From the NCBI GenBank assembly GCA_009936995.1, contig JAACDH010000488.1:1-37321 (forward strand): a DNA stretch of 37,321 nucleotides, given 5' to 3'. The stretch comes from Rhodobacterales bacterium (GTDB taxonomy: Bacteria > Myxococcota_A > UBA796 > GCA-2862545). A model generated the notes under the pieces. The model saw nothing but the letters and a program-made list of their open reading frames with translations, was not told the DNA's origin and made no database searches. Below are positions 9,581 to 18,583 of this stretch, one piece after another. Each line of letters starts with the position of its first letter. Within the stretch, counting starts at the first letter, position 1. A program made the position numbers and the translations under genes.

Positions 9581-10807
9581 TTAGCCGGTGTATTTGGCCG
9601 GTCGCGCCCTTCGAATAGAACCGGATTCGCAGTCGATGACACGTATCTCGCAGTCACAAAGTTCGAATATGGCACGCTGGCCATATCTCCGAGCGATGTC
9701 CAACATCGCCTCCCGTGTCGCTCCGCTACAGGCGATCGAATGTTCTTGCCATGAGCCCACGCGAGACGCGCCTATGGCAGGCCATTGGGCATCCGTGCAT
9801 GTCTCGACCTCTCGCTTTAGGCGTTCCATCGCGTCAGCCGTCTCCGACTCGGTCAGCCTTCGCCCTCCAGGGTTGTGGGCCGTAAGTACAAACACTGAAG
9901 AGGGCCATGCCGTCGGCGCCGCGACCGGCGGCTCCCCGTCGTCGACGGCGCGTACGGTCGCAATGACCGCGTGCTCGAACCTCAGCTCTGTCCCAACGTA
10001 CGCGTCCCACATGAACGGTGAGTTGGTAGAGAGTGCCCATGCTTTGTCGGTTAGGGCCTGCACTTCAGCAATCTTGTCGAGTGTTCGTGCGAGGTCGTCG
10101 CGCACCGCGAATACGCGCCCGCCGTTCGCGATCGTGTTGCGAAGCAATGTCAGCGCTTCCTTGAGCTTGTTCCACTGCTGGCGACTGTATTCGAGATCGT
10201 GCAACAGCAACTTCGTCACCCCGACGATCTCAAAGTGGTCAACAAAATCGAGACACTGGAGCGGACTGAGGTCCGTTTTTACCACCTCCCGCTGCTCGAA
10301 GCGGCGCTGGAGTTTCTTTGCTCGGTCACGGTCCAGCCGCTTCAGCCAATCGCCATGGGTGTACATATCAATCAACGGCGTGAGCGCTTGCTTAAGACGC
10401 AGCAAGAGACCGAGCACTGCCGTGCTTACGGGCGGCAACTGCAGGTCGGCCCGGGTCACGATTCCGGCAATGTGGTCGCTGGTCTGGACATAGAAGTATG
10501 CGCGCTGGCGGAAGTGAGGGAGCAAAGTAGCAAGGCTAGCGCTGGCGCTCACAAGCTCCGACGCCTTGATGTCGCGCATGAGGACGGCCAATTTCTTGGT
10601 GCTAACCTTCAGTTCATCCAACACGACGCATCTCGTGATGGGGCTCTCCTGGATTGGCGCTTGTTTGATCGCCTGATGCTCCATGAGGCGGATTGCCTGC
10701 TCGGCTGTGGCATCGGCCGGAATGCAAATGAGGCCGCTTGTCGCGACGTCGGCGACCGTAACCAGCCCCTCCAGGAGTCGCGGCGCGTCGCGGTCATGGC
10801 GTGTCAT
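9581..10807 (-). CDS. CBS-pair / HEPN-like / DUF3293 protein
   Basis: A 408-residue protein with three parts. Residues 1-135 form a CBS pair (LVTVADVATSGLICIPADAT, then IAGIVTRADLQLPP), usually an adenine-nucleotide sensor. Residues about 140-260 are helical, with SPLQCLDFVDHFEIVG and a final KEALTLLRNTIANGG. This resembles CBS-linked HEPN-type domains, but the RNxxAH motif reads RNTIAN, so the catalytic His is absent. Residues about 300-400 look like DUF3293: SSVFVLTAHNPGGRRLTESE, a Trp/Gly turn, and YGQRAIFE near the end. ATG 10807 follows GGAG by five bases; a longer upstream frame lacks a site. It ends with TAA, convergent with the CrtI-like gene. It is probably a cytosolic nucleotide-responsive regulator; activity unknown. 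Confidence 0.7.
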   Translation of the reverse strand: MTRHDRDAPRLLEGLVTVADVATSGLICIPADATAEQAIRLMEHQAIKQAPIQESPITRCVVLDELKVSTKKLAVLMRDIKASELVSASASLATLLPHFRQRAYFYVQTSDHIAGIVTRADLQLPPVSTAVLGLLLRLKQALTPLIDMYTHGDWLKRLDRDRAKKLQRRFEQREVVKTDLSPLQCLDFVDHFEIVGVTKLLLHDLEYSRQQWNKLKEALTLLRNTIANGGRVFAVRDDLARTLDKIAEVQALTDKAWALSTNSPFMWDAYVGTELRFEHAVIATVRAVDDGEPPVAAPTAWPSSVFVLTAHNPGGRRLTESETADAMERLKREVETCTDAQWPAIGASRVGSWQEHSIACSGATREAMLDIARRYGQRAIFELCDCEIRVIDCESGSIRRARPAKYTG

Positions 10808-11400
10808 CTTCGCTCCCGAGGATGAGCATCGTCCGGGTGTTCCATGGCCCAGCGTACCGCACTTTGGAGGGTTTACCAGTGCCACCTCAACGGGGCTGTC
10901 CGTCAAAACGGGGCAAGGTCCTTCGGAGCGATGGTCTGCGCGTTTGGTGTGCTGGAAGGGGCCGCGATTTAAGACAGGTCGCAAACACTGTTTGAAGACT
11001 GGACCGAACAAATACTTCAGATGCGCGTAGCCAGCGGACTCCTAAAATGGTGGCGGGAGCTCTTCTGCCGGCCATCTGTTGAGCAAATGCCCATTCGGCG
11101 TTCCTGGCTCGCACGGTGAGTAGCAGGCACGCCGATGTTGCACCGTCGCGGTAAGTCAGCGAGCGACGGCGGTCACCTTGTTTGAAAGTGGGAGCATCGC
11201 CGGTGCCTGGCGCGTACCATTGTGATGCTTTTTGAGGTCGATGGTGGTCGAAAGGCTGTGCGGTGCCAAGGGTCGGCTACGACATCGAACTCATGAAGAA
11301 GCGCGCGTTGGCTAGCGGGCTGCCTGATACAAAAGGATGGCTCGACCTGTTTTATGGTGAGCCGGGGTTTCGACAGCACCAGCGGCGTTCACGTTTTCGG
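10808..11400. other. Intergenic upstream of his operon
   Basis: About 590 bases between the CBS gene start and the his leader. Frames here are short or shadows with no recognisable domain. It should hold promoters for both divergent neighbours. I see no RNA gene or repeat. Confidence 0.4.
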
Positions 11401-11430
11401 TTGACAGCGCTCACGTGATCGACCACGTTT
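11401..11430 (+). promoter_or_regulatory. Possible his promoter
   Basis: A perfect TTGACA lies at 11401-11406. At 17-18 bases spacing the -10 position reads CACGTT/ACGTTT, a poor match to TATAAT. If used, transcription would start almost at the leader ATG, making the leader message nearly leaderless. No Shine-Dalgarno sequence precedes that ATG, which fits. Weak evidence overall. Confidence 0.3.
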
Positions 11431-11435
11431 AGACC

Positions 11436-11492
11436 ATGACACGCACCGCCAGCCAGAATCATCTGCATCATCTCCACGAGGTGGGTGGGTAG
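11436..11492 (+). CDS. hisL: Histidine operon leader peptide
   Basis: A short reading frame encoding MTRTASQNHLHHLHEVGG, then TAG. Four of six consecutive codons are His (11460, 11466, 11469, 11475), the hallmark of a his attenuation leader. It begins MTR like the enterobacterial leader. It sits 100 bases upstream of hisG and directly before a strong terminator hairpin. Ribosome stalling at the His codons when charged tRNA-His is scarce should set which downstream hairpin forms. No other role is expected for the peptide itself. It is too short for ordinary gene finders. Confidence 0.88.
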   Translation: MTRTASQNHLHHLHEVGG

Positions 11493-11520
11493 CGGTGTCA
11501 AACGAATTCTGAACACCTAC
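11444..11520 (+). promoter_or_regulatory. Attenuator pause and antiterminator segments
   Basis: Three mutually exclusive pairings can be drawn. Segment 1 (CACCGC, 11444-11449) pairs perfectly with segment 2 (GCGGTG, 11492-11497). Segment 2 (11489-11498) can instead pair with segment 3 (ACACCTAC, 11513-11520): eight base pairs with a two-base bulge at 11492-11493. Segment 3 overlaps the base of the terminator stem. A ribosome stalled on the His codons would mask segment 1, freeing 2 to pair with 3 and so weakening the terminator. This is the classic amino-acid attenuation layout; pairings were found by eye. Confidence 0.7.
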
Positions 11521-11551
11521 GCCGGCCCTCCCAGGTCGGCGTTGTTCGTTT
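11519..11551 (+). terminator. his attenuator terminator
   Basis: Stem CGCCGGCC (11520-11527) pairs with GGTCGGCG (11534-11541) over eight base pairs with one G-U, plus a flanking A-T, around the loop CTCCCA. The tail TTGTTCGTTT follows at once. It lies between the leader peptide stop and hisG, so it would end transcription when histidine is plentiful. Confidence 0.85.
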
Positions 11552-11592
11552 GGAATGGTGCGATCTGAGGAGGTCCGGGACTGGAGCCTCCA

Positions 11593-12477
11593 ATGAATCT
11601 GTCCCCAAAAATTTCCCTGTCCCAAACAAACCCCCTCCGCCTGGCCCTGCCCAAGGGTCGGATGAAGAACGGTGTCTTCCAGCTCCTCGCCGAAGCGGGC
11701 ATCTCCGTGAATATCGGCGACCGCGGCTATCGGCCCCGGTTGAGCTGGGAGGCGGTCGAAGCCAAGCTGCTAAAACCCCAGAACGCCATCGAGATGATCG
11801 CGTCCGGAACTCGGGACCTGGGTTTCGCAGGGGCTGACTGGGTGGCCGAGCTCGACGCCGACGTGGTAGATCTCCTAGACACCCGCCTAAATCCGGTCCG
11901 ACTGGTGGCCGCCCTACCCCTCGCCGCCGCAGGAAACTGGACACAGACGGTTCGCTCGGTGGCCTCGGAGTATGGCCGGTTGACCACCCGATGGATGGCC
12001 GACCGGGGCATCGACGGTCGCTTGGTTCGGTCGTACGGCGCCACCGAGGTCTTCCCGCCCGAGGACGCCGACTGTATTGTCGACAATACGGCCACCGGGG
12101 CCACCTTGCAGGCGAACGGACTGGTCATCGTCGACGAGCTGATGACCAGCTCGACCCGGTTGTTCGCCAATCGACGGGCCCTCGACGACGCCTCCCGACG
12201 AGACCGCATCGAGGACCTCGTGCTGCTGCTGACCGCCGTGCTCACCGCCCGGGACCGGGTGATGATCGAGGTCAACGTGAGCGCCGACCGGATGGACGCC
12301 GTGATGGGTTGTTTGCCGTGTATGCGTGAGCCCACCGTCGCGCAGCTTGCGAACAACAGTGGATTCGCGCTGAAGGTGGCCGCACCTCGCACGTCGCTAC
12401 CGGTGGTGATTCCGGCCGTGAAAGCTGCCGGCGGCACCGACATCGTGGTCACCAATATTGCCCAGATCGTGTCCTGA
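11593..12477 (+). CDS. hisG: ATP phosphoribosyltransferase, long form
   Basis: First enzyme of histidine synthesis: joins ATP and PRPP to give phosphoribosyl-ATP. At 294 residues it is the long, self-regulated type, needing no HisZ. Motifs: LRLALPKGRM at residue 16, the YGATEVFPPEDADCIVDN segment, and the PRPP loop TGATLQANGL. The C-terminal 75 residues (from MIEVNVSADRMDAVMGCLP) are the ACT-like histidine-feedback domain. ATG 11593 follows GGAG by six bases. Its stop overlaps the next start (TGATG). It should therefore be controlled twice, by attenuation and by feedback. Confidence 0.95.
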   Translation: MNLSPKISLSQTNPLRLALPKGRMKNGVFQLLAEAGISVNIGDRGYRPRLSWEAVEAKLLKPQNAIEMIASGTRDLGFAGADWVAELDADVVDLLDTRLNPVRLVAALPLAAAGNWTQTVRSVASEYGRLTTRWMADRGIDGRLVRSYGATEVFPPEDADCIVDNTATGATLQANGLVIVDELMTSSTRLFANRRALDDASRRDRIEDLVLLLTAVLTARDRVMIEVNVSADRMDAVMGCLPCMREPTVAQLANNSGFALKVAAPRTSLPVVIPAVKAAGGTDIVVTNIAQIVS

Positions 12478-14129
12478 TGGCCGCCCTGAAACCCGCCCGC
12501 GCGGTGATGAACCAGCCCTATCGGGTGCCTCGGGCAATGGCGCCCGTCGACCTGTTCCTAGACAGCAACGAGGGCCAAGCGCCCCAACTAGCCGCACGAA
12601 GCCAACTCGCGTCGTTGTCTCGCTACCCGGATGCGGCACCGCTCACCCGGGCACTCGCCAGTCGTCTGGGTATATCCGAGGATCGCGTGGTGGTGACCGC
12701 CGGCGCCGACGACGCCATCGACCGCGCATGTCGCGCCGTTCTCGAGCCCGGTCGGAACGCGATTATACCGGTGCCCGGCTTTGTGATGGTCAACCGCTAT
12801 GTGGCCGCCGCTGGCGCCGAAGGGCGAGACGTCACCTGGTCCTCTGCGTCGTTTCCCCTCGCCGAAACCCTGGCGGCCATCGACGGCAATACCCGGCTGA
12901 TTGTGCTCACCACGCCCAACAATCCCACGGGCTGCACCCTGTCGGCCGACACTTTGGTGTGCATCGCCGAAGCCGCCCCCCAGGCGTTGGTCCTGGTCGA
13001 CTTGGCCTACGTGGAGTTCGCCAATGATGACCCCACGCTGGTCGCGCTCGAGTTTTCCAATACCTTGGTTGTGCGGACCTTCTCGAAGGCCTACGGCTGT
13101 GCCGGTCTGCGCGTCGGTTACGCCGCTGGCGCTCCCGAGATCATTCGTTGGCTGAAGAGCGTCGGACCTCCCTACGCGGTCTCTTCGCTGTCGCTCGCGC
13201 TCGCGACCCAGGTCCTCAACCGCGGCCCAGGTGCACTCGACGCCACCGTGGCCTGGGTTCGACAAGCCCGCGAGGAACTGACCCAGCTGCTGCTGGCACT
13301 CCACATAGAAGTCTGGCCTTCACAGGCCAATTTCGTGCTCTGTAGGGTACCCAACGCCCTATGGTTCCGCGACGCCATGGCCGGACTGGGCATCGCCGTA
13401 CGCGCCTTTCCCGGTAGGGCGAACCTCGACAACTGCATCCGCATCGCCCTGCCGTCGACATCCGAAGACCAACAACGCCTGTGTGGAGCCGTGCAAACCG
13501 TGCTTGCGCCACAGGCCTTGCTCTTCGACCTGGACGGTGTCATCGCCAACGTCAGCCAGTCCTATCGGCAAGCCATCGCGGCCACGACCCTCGACTATGG
13601 CCTGATCTGCTCGCTCTCAGACATCCAAGCTGCCAAGGACGCAGGCGGCGCCAACAACGATTGGGTGCTCACCCGCGATCTGCTCGATGCAGCCGGCATC
13701 TCCGTGCCTCTCGCCCGCGTCACCGAGACCTTCGAGTCGCACTACCAGGGCGACCTCTGGAGGTCCGAAGACCTGCTTTGCAGCAGAGACACCTTGGCTC
13801 GTTGGTCCAAGCGATACCCGCTGGCCGTCGTGACCGGGCGACCTCGGAAGGACGCGCTGCGCTTCCTCGAGCAGTTCGACCTTCTCGACCTCTTCCAGGC
13901 CGTCATATGCCTAGAGGACGCACCGTCCAAACCCGATCCTGCGCCGGTCAAACTGGCGCTCTCTCGGCTCGGAATCGCCCGCGCCTGGATGTTCGGAGAC
14001 ACCCCAAACGACATGCGAGCCGCACGTTCCGCCTCCGTCCTTCCCCTGGGAATCGGAAGTACAACCTTGGTTGCTGAAGGCGCGGCGCGGACTTGGCAGG
14101 GACTCGACGACGTGGAGGTGGTGCCATGA
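12477..14129 (+). CDS. hisC: Histidinol-phosphate aminotransferase fused to HAD phosphatase
   Basis: A 550-residue fusion. Residues 1-345 are HisC: NNPT at 148-151, Asp175/Tyr178, PLP lysine Lys204 in TFSKAYGCAGLRVGY, and Arg322 for the substrate carboxylate. Residues 347-550 are a complete HAD subfamily-IA hydrolase: nucleophile Asp351 and Asp353 (LLFDLDGVIANVS), Thr453 (VVTGRP), Lys485 (SKPDP) and Asp508/Asp512 (GDTPNDM). The stretch GGANNDW near 390 matches, from memory, a HAD group linked to histidine genes. HisC makes histidinol phosphate, and the HAD part is the only phosphatase in the operon. Histidinol-phosphate phosphatase is the natural inference, but specificity is unproven. Both ends overlap neighbours (TGATG, ATGA). 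Confidence 0.93.
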   Translation: MAALKPARAVMNQPYRVPRAMAPVDLFLDSNEGQAPQLAARSQLASLSRYPDAAPLTRALASRLGISEDRVVVTAGADDAIDRACRAVLEPGRNAIIPVPGFVMVNRYVAAAGAEGRDVTWSSASFPLAETLAAIDGNTRLIVLTTPNNPTGCTLSADTLVCIAEAAPQALVLVDLAYVEFANDDPTLVALEFSNTLVVRTFSKAYGCAGLRVGYAAGAPEIIRWLKSVGPPYAVSSLSLALATQVLNRGPGALDATVAWVRQAREELTQLLLALHIEVWPSQANFVLCRVPNALWFRDAMAGLGIAVRAFPGRANLDNCIRIALPSTSEDQQRLCGAVQTVLAPQALLFDLDGVIANVSQSYRQAIAATTLDYGLICSLSDIQAAKDAGGANNDWVLTRDLLDAAGISVPLARVTETFESHYQGDLWRSEDLLCSRDTLARWSKRYPLAVVTGRPRKDALRFLEQFDLLDLFQAVICLEDAPSKPDPAPVKLALSRLGIARAWMFGDTPNDMRAARSASVLPLGIGSTTLVAEGAARTWQGLDDVEVVP

Positions 14130-14710
14130 CCCGAACCGCACAGATTCGGCGCACCACCACCGAGACCGATATCGACCTCACCCTCACCCTGGCAGACGTG
14201 GGCCCCAATCGCATCGAGACCGGCCTGGGATTCCTCGACCACATGCTCACCGCGTTGGCGCGTCACTCGGGTTGGACGCTGGTTCTCAAAGCGACCGGAG
14301 ACACTTGGGTCGACGACCACCACACCGTCGAAGATGTCGCCATCTGCCTGGGCCAAGCTGTGTCTAATGCCCTGGGAGAGCGCAGGGGAATCCAACGCTT
14401 TGGGTCGGCGTTCGTACCGATGGACGAGGCGCTCGCCCGCGTGGTCATCGACCTGTCAGGTCGACCGGCCTGGGTGGTCAACCTGGGCTTTAAACGCGAG
14501 AAACTGGGCGCCGTCGCCACCGAGAACCTGACCCACTTCTTCCAGACCTTGGCCATCGAACTGAAGGCGGCCATCCATGTGGACGTGCTCCGCGGAGAGA
14601 ACGATCACCACCGCTCCGAAGCCGCCTTCAAGGCGCTCGCGCTGGCCCTCAAGGCTGCCTGTACCTCTACCGAATCCGACCAAATCCCCAGCACCAAGGG
14701 CGTGCTCTAA
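14126..14710 (+). CDS. hisB: Imidazoleglycerol-phosphate dehydratase
   Basis: Dehydrates imidazoleglycerol phosphate to imidazoleacetol phosphate, the HisC substrate. At 194 residues it is the monofunctional form, without the phosphatase domain of the enterobacterial HisB. Metal-binding motifs are clear: FLDHMLTALARHSG, DDHHTVEDVAICLG, and near the C-terminus ENDHHRSEAAFKALA. ATG 14126 overlaps the previous stop (ATGA). Its TAA overlaps the next ATG (TAATG). Upstream in-frame Met codons lie inside hisC and are unlikely starts. It supplies the substrate for the transaminase fused in the preceding gene. Confidence 0.96.
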   Translation: MTRTAQIRRTTTETDIDLTLTLADVGPNRIETGLGFLDHMLTALARHSGWTLVLKATGDTWVDDHHTVEDVAICLGQAVSNALGERRGIQRFGSAFVPMDEALARVVIDLSGRPAWVVNLGFKREKLGAVATENLTHFFQTLAIELKAAIHVDVLRGENDHHRSEAAFKALALALKAACTSTESDQIPSTKGVL

Positions 14711-16080
14711 TGCAAATCCACATCGTCAAGACCGGCGTGGCTAACTTGGCCAGTGTGTGCGCCGCCTTTCGCCAGATCGGATGCGAGCCCGTGCTCACCA
14801 CCGATGCCACCACCATTCGGACCGCGGCCCATGTGGTCTTGCCCGGTGTGGGCGCCTTCGGGTCGGGCATAACAGCCCTACGCAGCGGCGGTCTGACCGA
14901 GGCACTCAAGACGCGCATCGACCGGGACCAGCCCACACTGGCCATCTGCTTGGGTATGCAACTGCTGTGCACCGACTCGGAGGAATGCCCCAGAGAGCGC
15001 GGGATGAACGCCGTGAACGCATCGGTCCGCCGACTCCGGGCAGACACCGTGCCCCAGATGGGCTGGAACGCGGTCGAGACACCCAGTGAATCCAGGTTGA
15101 TCGGCGGCTACGCCTACTTTGCCAATAGCTACGCGCTCGACGCCATTCCCGCTGGCTGGCAAGGCCTGATGGCCAACCACGGATATCCCCTGGTCGCCGC
15201 CCTGTTTCGCGGTTCTGTGTTGCTCTGTCAGTTTCACCCCGAACTCTCTGGAGAATGGGGCTTGAACCTCCTCCGTCAGTGGGCCGGGTTGCCCGTCGAC
15301 AAGCGCACATCCTCACTGCGGGGCAACCAGCTCGCCAGTCGCGTCATCCCCTGCTTAGACATCCGAGATGGCCGGGTGGTGAAGGGCGTCCAGTTCCAAG
15401 GACTGCGCGACCAGGGAGACCCCGTCGAGTTCGCCGAGCGGTATGCCGCGCAAGGCGCCGATGAACTGGTCGTCCTAGACATCGCCGCGACCCCAGGCGC
15501 GCGGGACCACGGCCTTGAGGTCCTACGAAAAATTAGAGCAAAGCTAGCGATCCCACTCACAGCTGGGGGAGGTGTGCGGTCCGTCCGCGACGCGTCCCAG
15601 ATGCTGGAAGCCGGCGCCGACAAGGTGGCCGTCAACAGCGCCGCCGTCGCCAACCCTGTCCTGATCACCCAGCTCGCCGATGCCTTCGGCCGGCAGTGCG
15701 TGGTCCTCGCCATTGACGCCCAGCGCACCGACGATGGCTGGCAGGTGCTCACCCGAAGTGGCGGAACAAACAGCGGGCGGTGTGTCGTCGTCTGGGCCCA
15801 AGAGGCCGAACGCCTGGGGGCAGGAGAGATCTTGCTCACCAGTTGGGACCGGGACGGAACGGGCCGGGGCTACGATCTAGACCTGGTCCGCGCCATCCGG
15901 GCCGCCGTTCGCCTACCGGTCATCGCCTCGGGCGGTGGACGCACGGCCGACCACATGCACCAAGCCCTCAACGCAGGAGCCAGCGCCGTTCTCGCCGCAT
16001 CCGTTCTGCACGACCGCGACACCACCATTCCCGAACTGAAACAGACCCTCCGCCGCAAAGGCCAGGAGATCCGATCATGA
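14710..16080 (+). CDS. hisHF: HisH-HisF fusion: imidazole glycerol phosphate synthase
   Basis: A 456-residue protein joining both subunits of IGP synthase, normally separate in bacteria. Residues 1-195 are the class I glutaminase HisH, with Cys80 (AICLGMQLL) and His176/Glu178 (QFHPELS). After a short linker, residues 210-456 are the HisF barrel: Asp217 (RVIPCLDIRDGRVVKG), the phosphate-binding TAGGGVRS, Asp336 (LAIDAQ) and TSWDRDGTGRGYD. All catalytic residues seem intact. Glutamine-derived ammonia would pass from HisH into HisF to make IGP and AICAR. The same HisH-HisF order occurs in the fungal/plant HIS7 enzyme. Overlaps are TAATG upstream and ATGA downstream. Confidence 0.95.
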   Translation: MQIHIVKTGVANLASVCAAFRQIGCEPVLTTDATTIRTAAHVVLPGVGAFGSGITALRSGGLTEALKTRIDRDQPTLAICLGMQLLCTDSEECPRERGMNAVNASVRRLRADTVPQMGWNAVETPSESRLIGGYAYFANSYALDAIPAGWQGLMANHGYPLVAALFRGSVLLCQFHPELSGEWGLNLLRQWAGLPVDKRTSSLRGNQLASRVIPCLDIRDGRVVKGVQFQGLRDQGDPVEFAERYAAQGADELVVLDIAATPGARDHGLEVLRKIRAKLAIPLTAGGGVRSVRDASQMLEAGADKVAVNSAAVANPVLITQLADAFGRQCVVLAIDAQRTDDGWQVLTRSGGTNSGRCVVVWAQEAERLGAGEILLTSWDRDGTGRGYDLDLVRAIRAAVRLPVIASGGGRTADHMHQALNAGASAVLAASVLHDRDTTIPELKQTLRRKGQEIRS

Positions 16081-17336
16081 TTGTGCCTTCCATCGACCTC
16101 ATGAATCAGCGCGCTGTCCAACTCATTGGCGGCGAAACCCTCGAAATCGACGCCGGGGACGCCAGGCCCATCGCCGATCGCTTTGGACGGGTGGGCGAAG
16201 TCGCCGTCATCGACCTAGACGCCGCCCTCGGCCGCAAACCGCAAACCGAAACCGTCCGCGACCTCCTCCAACGGGCCAGATGTCGGGTGGGCGGAGGAAT
16301 CCGCTCGGTACAGGCCGCCATCGACTGGCTCGACGCCGGCGCCGAAAAGGTCATCCTCGGCACCGCCGCCACCCCAGAGATCCTCTCACAGCTACCCAAA
16401 GGCCGAGTGATCGCCGCCTTGGACGCAAGAAACGGAGAGGTCCTCTCCCACGGTTGGACCCGAGGCACCGGAACCACCATCCTCGAGCGCATCGAAGCGC
16501 TCCGACCCTACGTCGGCGGTTTCCTGATTACGTTTGTGGAGCGCGAGGGACGCTTGGGAGGAACCTGTCTCGATCGGGTGCCCGAGCTGGTCGAAGCGGC
16601 CCAAAACGCCAAGGTCACCATCGCCGGCGGCATCACCACCGCAGAAGAGGTGGCCGCACTCGACCAGGCGGGCGCCGACGCCCAAGTCGGCATGGCCCTG
16701 TATGGCGGCCAAATGAGCCTCGCCGAGGGCTTCGCGGCGCCGCTAAGGTCGGACCGATCCGACGGGCTTTGGCCCACAGTGGTCTGTGATAGCCGTGGGG
16801 TTGCCTTGGGAATGGTATACAGCAACGTGGAGAGCCTCACCCGAGCCATCGACACCGGAACCGGGGTGTACTGGTCTCGCAAACGGGGACTGTGGCAGAA
16901 GGGCGCGACTTCGGGGGCGACTCAGCGGCTCATCCGACTGGACGTCGACTGCGACCGCGACTGCCTTCGCGCAGTGGTTGAGCAGGCGGGCAGTGGCTTC
17001 TGCCACCTCGACCAACCCGGCTGTTTCGGCGCCATCGGGGGTCTTGGAGCGCTGGACCAGACGCTGCGGGCACGGGTCGCGGACGCCCCCGTGGGCTCCT
17101 ACACCCGTAAACTCATCGACAACCCTGCCCTTCTTGGTAGCAAAATCATGGAAGAAGCCAGTGAATTGGTCGAAGCCACCTCCACCGAAGAGGTGTGTTG
17201 GGAGACTGCTGATGTGCTCTACTTCTCGATGGTGCGGGCAACAGCCGCCGGCGTGAGCCTGGCCCAAGTGGAACGAGAGCTGGACCGTCGCGCCCAAAAG
17301 GTCACCCGACGCTCGGATGTGGAGGCGTCATGCTGA
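16077..17336 (+). CDS. hisA: HisA-HisI-HisE three-domain enzyme
   Basis: A 419-residue fusion of three steps. Residues 1-222 are the HisA barrel, the ProFAR isomerase: Asp7 (VPSIDLM), VGGGIRSV at 71, Asp116 (AALDARNG), TIAGGITTAEEV at 181. Residues 230-325 are HisI, the PR-AMP cyclohydrolase: SRKRGLWQKGATSG, the Asp cluster 289-293, and Cys292/309/316 as likely zinc ligands. Residues 330-415 are HisE, the PR-ATP pyrophosphohydrolase: KIMEEASELVEA and ETADVLYF. It therefore performs steps two, three and four. ATG 16077 overlaps the hisHF stop; a longer upstream frame from 15780 would lie inside hisF. It overlaps hisD by seven bases. Confidence 0.94.
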   Translation: MIVPSIDLMNQRAVQLIGGETLEIDAGDARPIADRFGRVGEVAVIDLDAALGRKPQTETVRDLLQRARCRVGGGIRSVQAAIDWLDAGAEKVILGTAATPEILSQLPKGRVIAALDARNGEVLSHGWTRGTGTTILERIEALRPYVGGFLITFVEREGRLGGTCLDRVPELVEAAQNAKVTIAGGITTAEEVAALDQAGADAQVGMALYGGQMSLAEGFAAPLRSDRSDGLWPTVVCDSRGVALGMVYSNVESLTRAIDTGTGVYWSRKRGLWQKGATSGATQRLIRLDVDCDRDCLRAVVEQAGSGFCHLDQPGCFGAIGGLGALDQTLRARVADAPVGSYTRKLIDNPALLGSKIMEEASELVEATSTEEVCWETADVLYFSMVRATAAGVSLAQVERELDRRAQKVTRRSDVEASC

Positions 17337-18583
17337 AACAACGCGACGCGAACCTGCCGCCCGTACCCGGCACAGCCTCCCTCGACGCAGACACGCTGGC
17401 CACAGTCGACCGGATGATTCGTTCGGTACGGCTGGAGGGCTCCGTGGCCGTGCAGCGGCTGGGCCGGAAGTTTGGCGACCTAGGTCCCACGGAGTCCATC
17501 CGTGTGCTCGGACCGTCCGCACTCCAGCAGGCCCTGGAGCAGATTTCGGCCGCCGACCGGAGCCTGCTCGAACAGACCGCCGACCGAATCCGCACCTTCG
17601 CCCAGGCCCAACGAGACGCCATCCAGCCCGTAGATATCGCGGTCCCCGGCGGTCGCGCGGGCCTGAATTATGCGCCAATGGAACGGGTTGGATGCTATGC
17701 ACCTGGCGGTCGTTACCCCCTTCCCTCCTCGGTCCTCATGACCGCCATCACCGCGAAAGTGGCAGGTGTTCGGGATGTTTGGGTAGCGTCTCCGCGCCCG
17801 GCCGCAATCACCCTGGCCGCCGCCGCCATCGCCGGCGCCGACCACTTCTTCTGTATGGGAGGCGCACAAGCCATCGCCGCGCTGGCCTACGGAATCCACG
17901 AAGTCCCCCGCTGTGACCTCATCGTGGGTCCTGGGAACCGCTGGGTGAGTGCGGCCAAGCAGCTTGTGTCCGGCGACGTCGCCATCGACATGGTCGCTGG
18001 TCCCTCTGAACTCACGGTATTGGCCGACGAACACGCAGATGCCGAGTTGATTGCCGCTGACCTTCTCGCGCAGGCGGAGCACGACCCGGACGCAATTCCC
18101 ATCCTACTCAGCCAGTCCGAAGCCATGATCGACGCGGTGAACGACGCACTGAAGAACCAACTAAAGACGCTACCCACCGCCACCGTAGCAAGGGAGGCCC
18201 TCAAAAACGGATACGCGGTGTCCTTCCCAGACTTCGAAAAGATGGCGTCCTTTTGCGACAGCATCGCCCCAGAGCACGTCGCCCTCCACCTCCAGGACGC
18301 ACAGCAGCGGGTCTCCCGGCTACACAACTACGGCGCCGTGTTTGTGGGCGACCACGCCGCGGAGGTGTTCGGAGATTACGGCGCCGGCCCCAACCACGTG
18401 CTCCCCACCGCGGGATCCGCCCGTCGCACCGGAGCACTGTCCATCCTAAACTTTCTCCGCGCCCAGACCTGGCTACACTTGGAGGATCCTCGTCCGCTCG
18501 CAGAGCAGGCTGCCCGGTTCGGAAGGATCGAGGGATTAGAAGCGCACTCACGCGCCGCGGACTTCCGCAATAGACGCCCGTAG
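17330..18583 (+). CDS. hisD: Histidinol dehydrogenase
   Basis: Final enzyme: oxidises histidinol to histidine in two NAD-dependent steps, zinc enzyme. It is 417 residues, normal for the family. Motifs: VGCYAPGGRYPLPSSVLM, GGAQAIAALAYG, GPGNRWVSAAK, AGPSELTVLAD, then QAEHDPDA and IAPEHVALHL carrying the zinc and catalytic Glu/His residues, and YGAGPNHVLPT. ATG 17330 lies inside the end of hisA-I-E, so translation is probably coupled. It is last in the operon and ends with TAG at 18581-18583, within a possible terminator hairpin. Confidence 0.96.
   Translation: MLKQRDANLPPVPGTASLDADTLATVDRMIRSVRLEGSVAVQRLGRKFGDLGPTESIRVLGPSALQQALEQISAADRSLLEQTADRIRTFAQAQRDAIQPVDIAVPGGRAGLNYAPMERVGCYAPGGRYPLPSSVLMTAITAKVAGVRDVWVASPRPAAITLAAAAIAGADHFFCMGGAQAIAALAYGIHEVPRCDLIVGPGNRWVSAAKQLVSGDVAIDMVAGPSELTVLADEHADAELIAADLLAQAEHDPDAIPILLSQSEAMIDAVNDALKNQLKTLPTATVAREALKNGYAVSFPDFEKMASFCDSIAPEHVALHLQDAQQRVSRLHNYGAVFVGDHAAEVFGDYGAGPNHVLPTAGSARRTGALSILNFLRAQTWLHLEDPRPLAEQAARFGRIEGLEAHSRAADFRNRRP

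Follow-up and report, generated by a model that had tools for sequence, protein, structure and literature searches.

Histidine attenuators are established in Gammaproteobacteria. In the 37,321-nucleotide stretch of DNA analyzed here (hereafter the window), from an uncultured myxobacterium-like bacterium, a short reading frame rich in histidine codons precedes hisG, the first gene of a heavily fused his operon. This raises the question of whether an attenuator governs this operon outside that group and, if so, how its transcript begins and how widely the element occurs. Judging from the sequence, its relatives and the predicted folds, we consider it very likely that the element is a ribosome-mediated transcription attenuator, in which the supply of charged His-tRNA would set the expression of the his operon.

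A histidine-rich leader and its alternative structures

The leader peptide gene, which encodes MTRTASQNHLHHLHEVGG, lies upstream of hisG at 11436–11492 on the forward strand, comprises 18 codons from ATG to TAG, and is predicted to be leaderless. Its putative regulatory codons, CAT CTG CAT CAT CTC CAC (11460–11477, forward strand), include four histidine codons in six, at 11460, 11466, 11469 and 11475, and the His-rich stretch is kept in relatives. A few further four-in-six His stretches occur in the window, all in unrelated other frames. A Pfam search with seven of the longer leader peptides returned zero matches.

Three alternative pairings involve the leader and the RNA that follows it. The 3:4 structure is an intrinsic terminator at 11519–11542 (forward strand), composed of ACGCCGGCC-CTCCCA-GGTCGGCGT and then TGTTCGTTT, with a 9-bp stem of −16.1 kcal/mol that is supported by covariation. 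It is the sole terminator-like site within 11300–11620 (shuffles, 0.2), and its U tail is interrupted. Because the upstream neighboring gene (9581–11011) lies on the minus strand, this terminator ends no known plus-strand gene. The 2:3 antiterminator (11483–11528, forward strand; −18.2 kcal/mol), likewise supported by covariation, pairs 11483–11486 with 11525–11528, 11488–11490 with 11521–11523, and 11494–11500 with 11510–11517; it is placed as in relatives, occupies six bases of the nine-base 5′ arm of the terminator, and has one G-G mismatch in its lower stem. When the ribosome is absent, a 1:2 structure is predicted (11437–11500, forward strand; −24.3 kcal/mol), which pairs 11437–11442 with 11495–11500, 11446–11450 with 11484–11488, and 11469–11474 with 11478–11483; its own-partner energy was reached in 32 of 5000 permutations over 38 loci. 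The fold of 11430–11560 is more stable than those of shuffled sequences (z −2.44). Three of the features by which a ribosome-mediated attenuator is recognized were found together here, namely a His-codon-rich leader before hisG, an intrinsic terminator between the leader and the first gene, and a mutually exclusive antiterminator and terminator, both with covariation support.

The initial annotation of this DNA had described much of this arrangement. The tiny frame with four His codons in six is present at 11436–11492, the leader stop (11490) falls inside segment 2 as described, and the terminator with a U-rich tail was recovered at 11519–11542, with the interruption given above. The 1:2 pairing proposed there (11444–11449 with 11492–11497) stands in outline, but it represents only a fragment of the structure in a slightly shifted register. 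The proposed 2:3 pairing of 11489–11498 with 11513–11520 was in the wrong register; it overlaps two bases of the terminator stem and was rejected as too weak, at −4.2 kcal/mol against −18.2 kcal/mol for the best antiterminator.

To relate the structures to ribosome position, a ribosome was placed at each codon in turn and the RNA that it leaves uncovered was folded; its footprint was assumed to span 15 nt, counted from the first base in the A-site codon. For stalls at codons 9, 11 and 12, which are His codons 1–3, segment 3 stays sequestered at −18.2 to −15.7 kcal/mol; sequestration holds for stalls through codon 13, and segment 3 is released from codon 14, the fourth His codon, onward. The model thus predicts that stalling at the first three His codons, and not at the fourth, preserves the antiterminator. 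At equilibrium, the terminator is favored even when segment 2 is free, so antitermination would rely on the 2:3 structure forming first.

The operon proposed to be under this control begins with hisG (11593–12477, forward strand; Pfam HisG and HisG_C) and continues, according to open reading frames and Pfam, through a hisC-HAD fusion, hisB, a hisH-hisF fusion, a hisA-hisI-hisE fusion and hisD (12477–18583, forward strand). The hisH-hisF genes share one frame (14710–16080), as in eukaryotic HIS7, and hisA-hisI-hisE share another (16077–17336). Full-length HisHF matches were found in six genomes of the order (G000, G011, G013, G020, G042 and G047), all with a His leader. Histidine auxotrophy looks common in the class of the window, because only 15 of its 32 good-quality genomes have a HisG match and HisHF is also missing in many. 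In a few genomes of the class (for example, G012 and G051), the HisG match is weak and resembles a short HisG adjacent to a HisZ-like gene. The likely Shine-Dalgarno site of hisG lies within a stable hairpin at 11569–11591 (−15.0 kcal/mol) whose stem pairs GGAGG with CCTCC.

Conservation and covariation in relatives

Within the order of the window, a His-rich leader precedes hisG at 9 of 19 loci (L001–L003, L005–L008, L012 and L013), with leader peptides such as VTCLHHHSHAHHHPVAGPVQG and MLNRTAQFHHHHHPSLGW; the other ten loci, including the same-family members L004, L010 and L014, have no such leader. A collection-wide HisG search yielded 80 loci, and similar leaders occur in many of them. Of 91 hisG loci whose upstream DNA was long enough to examine, 41 have His-rich leaders; eight-codon stretches with five or more His occur on the coding strand at 35 of the 91 and on the opposite strand at none of them (0/91). 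The leader-bearing loci belong to Myxococcota, Planctomycetota, Acidobacteriota, Spirochaetota and Armatimonadota, and also to single bins labeled Proteobacteria, with phyla assigned from record titles that may be wrong for binned genomes. A terminator near ACGCCGGCC...GGCCGGCGT with a T-rich tail almost always lies downstream of the relatives' leaders. In the Spirochaetota loci (L042, L063, L067, L070, L088 and L103), the leaders are longer past the His codons than elsewhere, and the peptide is near-constant, ending in HLHHHGHAYAVAMIVIP, which suggests a tighter constraint on the peptide or the RNA.

The pairings are conserved along with the codons. Across 38 loci, pairing of segment 2 with segment 3 of the same locus has a mean energy of −20.3 kcal/mol, compared with −17.5 kcal/mol when segment 3 comes from another locus, and none of 5000 permutations reached the own-partner value; this test is conservative with respect to the claim, since relatives act as each other's partners. 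Covariation was scored on an alignment of 24 sequences, against 500 shuffles and against slid registers. The antiterminator showed 18 cells changed on both sides and a covariation score of 0.213, which no shuffle reached (0/500), and the terminator had 95% of its cells paired and 17 double changes (0/500 shuffles), counts to be read with the fact that the shuffle and permutation controls leave relatedness partly in. Both scores were above those of every slid register. Column by column, just 70% of the antiterminator cells keep their pairs, as its registers slip between sequences.

A covariance model of the element ranked the hisG leader first in the genome of the window (E 3e-14), where the next match (L130, E 9e-4) was without a His leader. 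The hisG leader also ranked first in each of 14 further whole genomes (E between 5e-19 and 3e-5), two of which have loci (L036 and L042) that did not contribute to the model. Among the 379 Myxococcota genomes sampled, full-length matches with a His leader sit before hisG; outside the training set, the matches L106, L114 and L118 again have a His leader before hisG, and a His leader is also present at L115. The remaining matches inspected in that sample look like ordinary terminators or repeats, except for L126 (G191:C1:7273448-7273578, minus strand). There, a Thr-rich frame, MNARFTTARTTTTTTRTGGAGEVRMR, precedes a terminator-like hairpin, after which comes a threonyl-tRNA synthetase-like gene; this is probably a threonine attenuator before thrS in a Myxococcota genome.

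Predicted promoter signals, proposed mechanism and competing explanations

A predicted −35 box, TTGACA, lies at 11401–11406 (forward strand), so that TTGAC starts 35 nt before the leader ATG, and a predicted −10 box, CACGTT, lies 17 nt past it at 11424–11429 (forward strand), 6 nt before the ATG. The position of this hexamer is conserved: in relatives, the best −10 hexamer ends 6–10 nt before the start codon, and in the order of the window 6–8 nt before it. Of 41 leaders, 35 have a TTGAC that starts 34–40 nt ahead of the start codon, against a background of 0.18 of 41 in equal slices further upstream, when the start codon of L030, L044, L048 and L070 is shifted to an upstream in-frame ATG; without these shifts, TTGAC is found at −39 to −34 in 32 of the 41. 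Shine-Dalgarno-like 4-mers are not enriched before the leader starts (3 of 41; shuffles, 5.0). Because of this TTGAC spacing and the lack of Shine-Dalgarno enrichment, the leader mRNA is predicted to start at the ATG (11436) or no more than a few bases away from it, and so to be leaderless. The initial annotation had named transcription starting downstream of 11492, or loss of the His codons and pairings in relatives, as findings that would count against an attenuator; the predicted promoter signal instead points to a start at about 11436, and both codons and pairings are kept, so that its interpretation is supported.

According to the proposed mechanism, RNA polymerase would start on the first base of the leader ATG (11436) or next to it, and a ribosome would load on the leaderless AUG without a Shine-Dalgarno site. 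When charged His-tRNA is short, the ribosome would stall at His codon 1, 2 or 3 (11460–11471), leaving segment 2 (11483–11500) free to pair with segment 3 ahead of the synthesis of segment 4; with the 2:3 structure formed, no terminator would arise and hisG to hisD would be transcribed. When His-tRNA is plentiful, the ribosome would reach the stop at 11490 and cover segment 2, allowing the 3:4 hairpin (11519–11542) to form and ending transcription some 45 nt short of hisG. Were no ribosome to load, the 1:2 structure would form and leave segment 3 free, and transcription would stop as well.

The same attenuator might operate without being leaderless, with transcription starting further upstream, TTGAC playing another role and ribosomes using an unrecognized loading signal. 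The −10 hexamer of the window is weak by consensus, and a generic promoter scan calls no promoter, which speaks for this alternative. We nevertheless regard it as unlikely, given that 35 of 41 leaders have both a TTGAC at −35 spacing and a hexamer that ends 6–10 nt before the start and that Shine-Dalgarno 4-mers are not enriched.

The two remaining explanations both seem highly improbable. Control could act mainly on hisG translation through sequestration of the ribosome-binding site, as the hairpin over the GGAG before the hisG start (11569–11591, −15.0 kcal/mol) would allow, but the terminator covaries and its T-rich tail recurs in relatives, so we give this reading very little weight. Marginally less credible still is a chance His-rich frame beside an unrelated terminator, with hisG driven from its own downstream promoter. 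Other four-in-six His stretches do exist in the window; conservation of the whole arrangement in relatives, the strand bias of 35 to 0 and the covariation nevertheless largely refute this idea, and no TTGAC-type promoter is visible in 11545–11593. The ribosome-mediated attenuator, with a leaderless start as its predicted form, is the reading that we favor.

Relation to known attenuators and wider distribution

The element shares with the enterobacterial hisL attenuator (Rfam RF00514, His_leader) a leader peptide with His codons, mutually exclusive 1:2, 2:3 and 3:4 hairpins and a position before hisG; it differs in its predicted leaderless start, with the promoter abutting the leader codons. 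Rfam, RF00514 included, gave no relevant match in the window at the gathering cut-off, in 11380–11620 at E ≤10, or at 14 related loci. A T-box riboswitch was also considered, and Rfam showed no match to one in the window. The initial annotation had regarded an attenuator outside the enterobacteria as the notable part. An attenuator is very likely present, but his leader peptides had already been reported in Firmicutes (PMC2965389, PMC9413887), and one of these studies saw no similarity in sequence between the Firmicutes and Proteobacteria leaders (PMC2965389). The Firmicutes attenuators (PMC2965389, PMC9413887) share with the present element His codons and a terminator with an antiterminator before his genes outside Proteobacteria, whereas their lineages differ from that of the window. 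In Actinobacteria, a study found his operons to have no conserved RNA element (PMC1262725).

Leaderless attenuators have been described for other amino acids. The Sinorhizobium meliloti rnTrpL begins with the ATG of trpL (PMC7298713); in Streptomyces lividans the leuL, trpL and ilvL leaders are leaderless, and no his leader is included in the S. lividans list (PMC8079986); and mycobacterial polycysteine short open reading frames are leaderless (Canestrari 2020, as cited in PMC13236596). In all of these, as predicted here, the mRNA begins at the leader start codon and the codons sense an amino acid, but the amino acids and the lineages are other than those of the window. The literature covered contained no report of a leaderless his attenuator or of his attenuators in the leader-bearing phyla; Vitreschak 2004 and Lopatovskaya 2010 lie outside that coverage and may hold earlier predictions. 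The attenuation mechanism is ordinary, while its architecture and distribution are apparently undescribed, and the notable part is the predicted leaderless start together with a layout common to several phyla.

We tentatively suggest that the leaders of Myxococcota, Planctomycetota, Spirochaetota, Acidobacteriota and Armatimonadota form one widespread, undescribed class of leaderless his attenuators, inherited from an early ancestor or carried between phyla with his operons, in which segment 2 overlaps the leader stop and is in many members complementary to the His codons; we rate this proposal as somewhat less than probable. The resolution of the HisG tree is too low to tell whether the leader was inherited, transferred or gained repeatedly.

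These results extend ribosome-sensed his regulation to phyla for which we found no earlier report, and they suggest that the leaderless start, described until now chiefly for attenuators of actinobacteria and rhizobia, is the norm here. The covariance model can be used to annotate the element, and the proposed mechanism predicts that His codons 1–3 control expression and that the fourth does not. Furthermore, leaderless loading, if true, would anchor the first ribosome at the extreme 5′ end of the growing transcript, making transcription–translation coupling directly testable.
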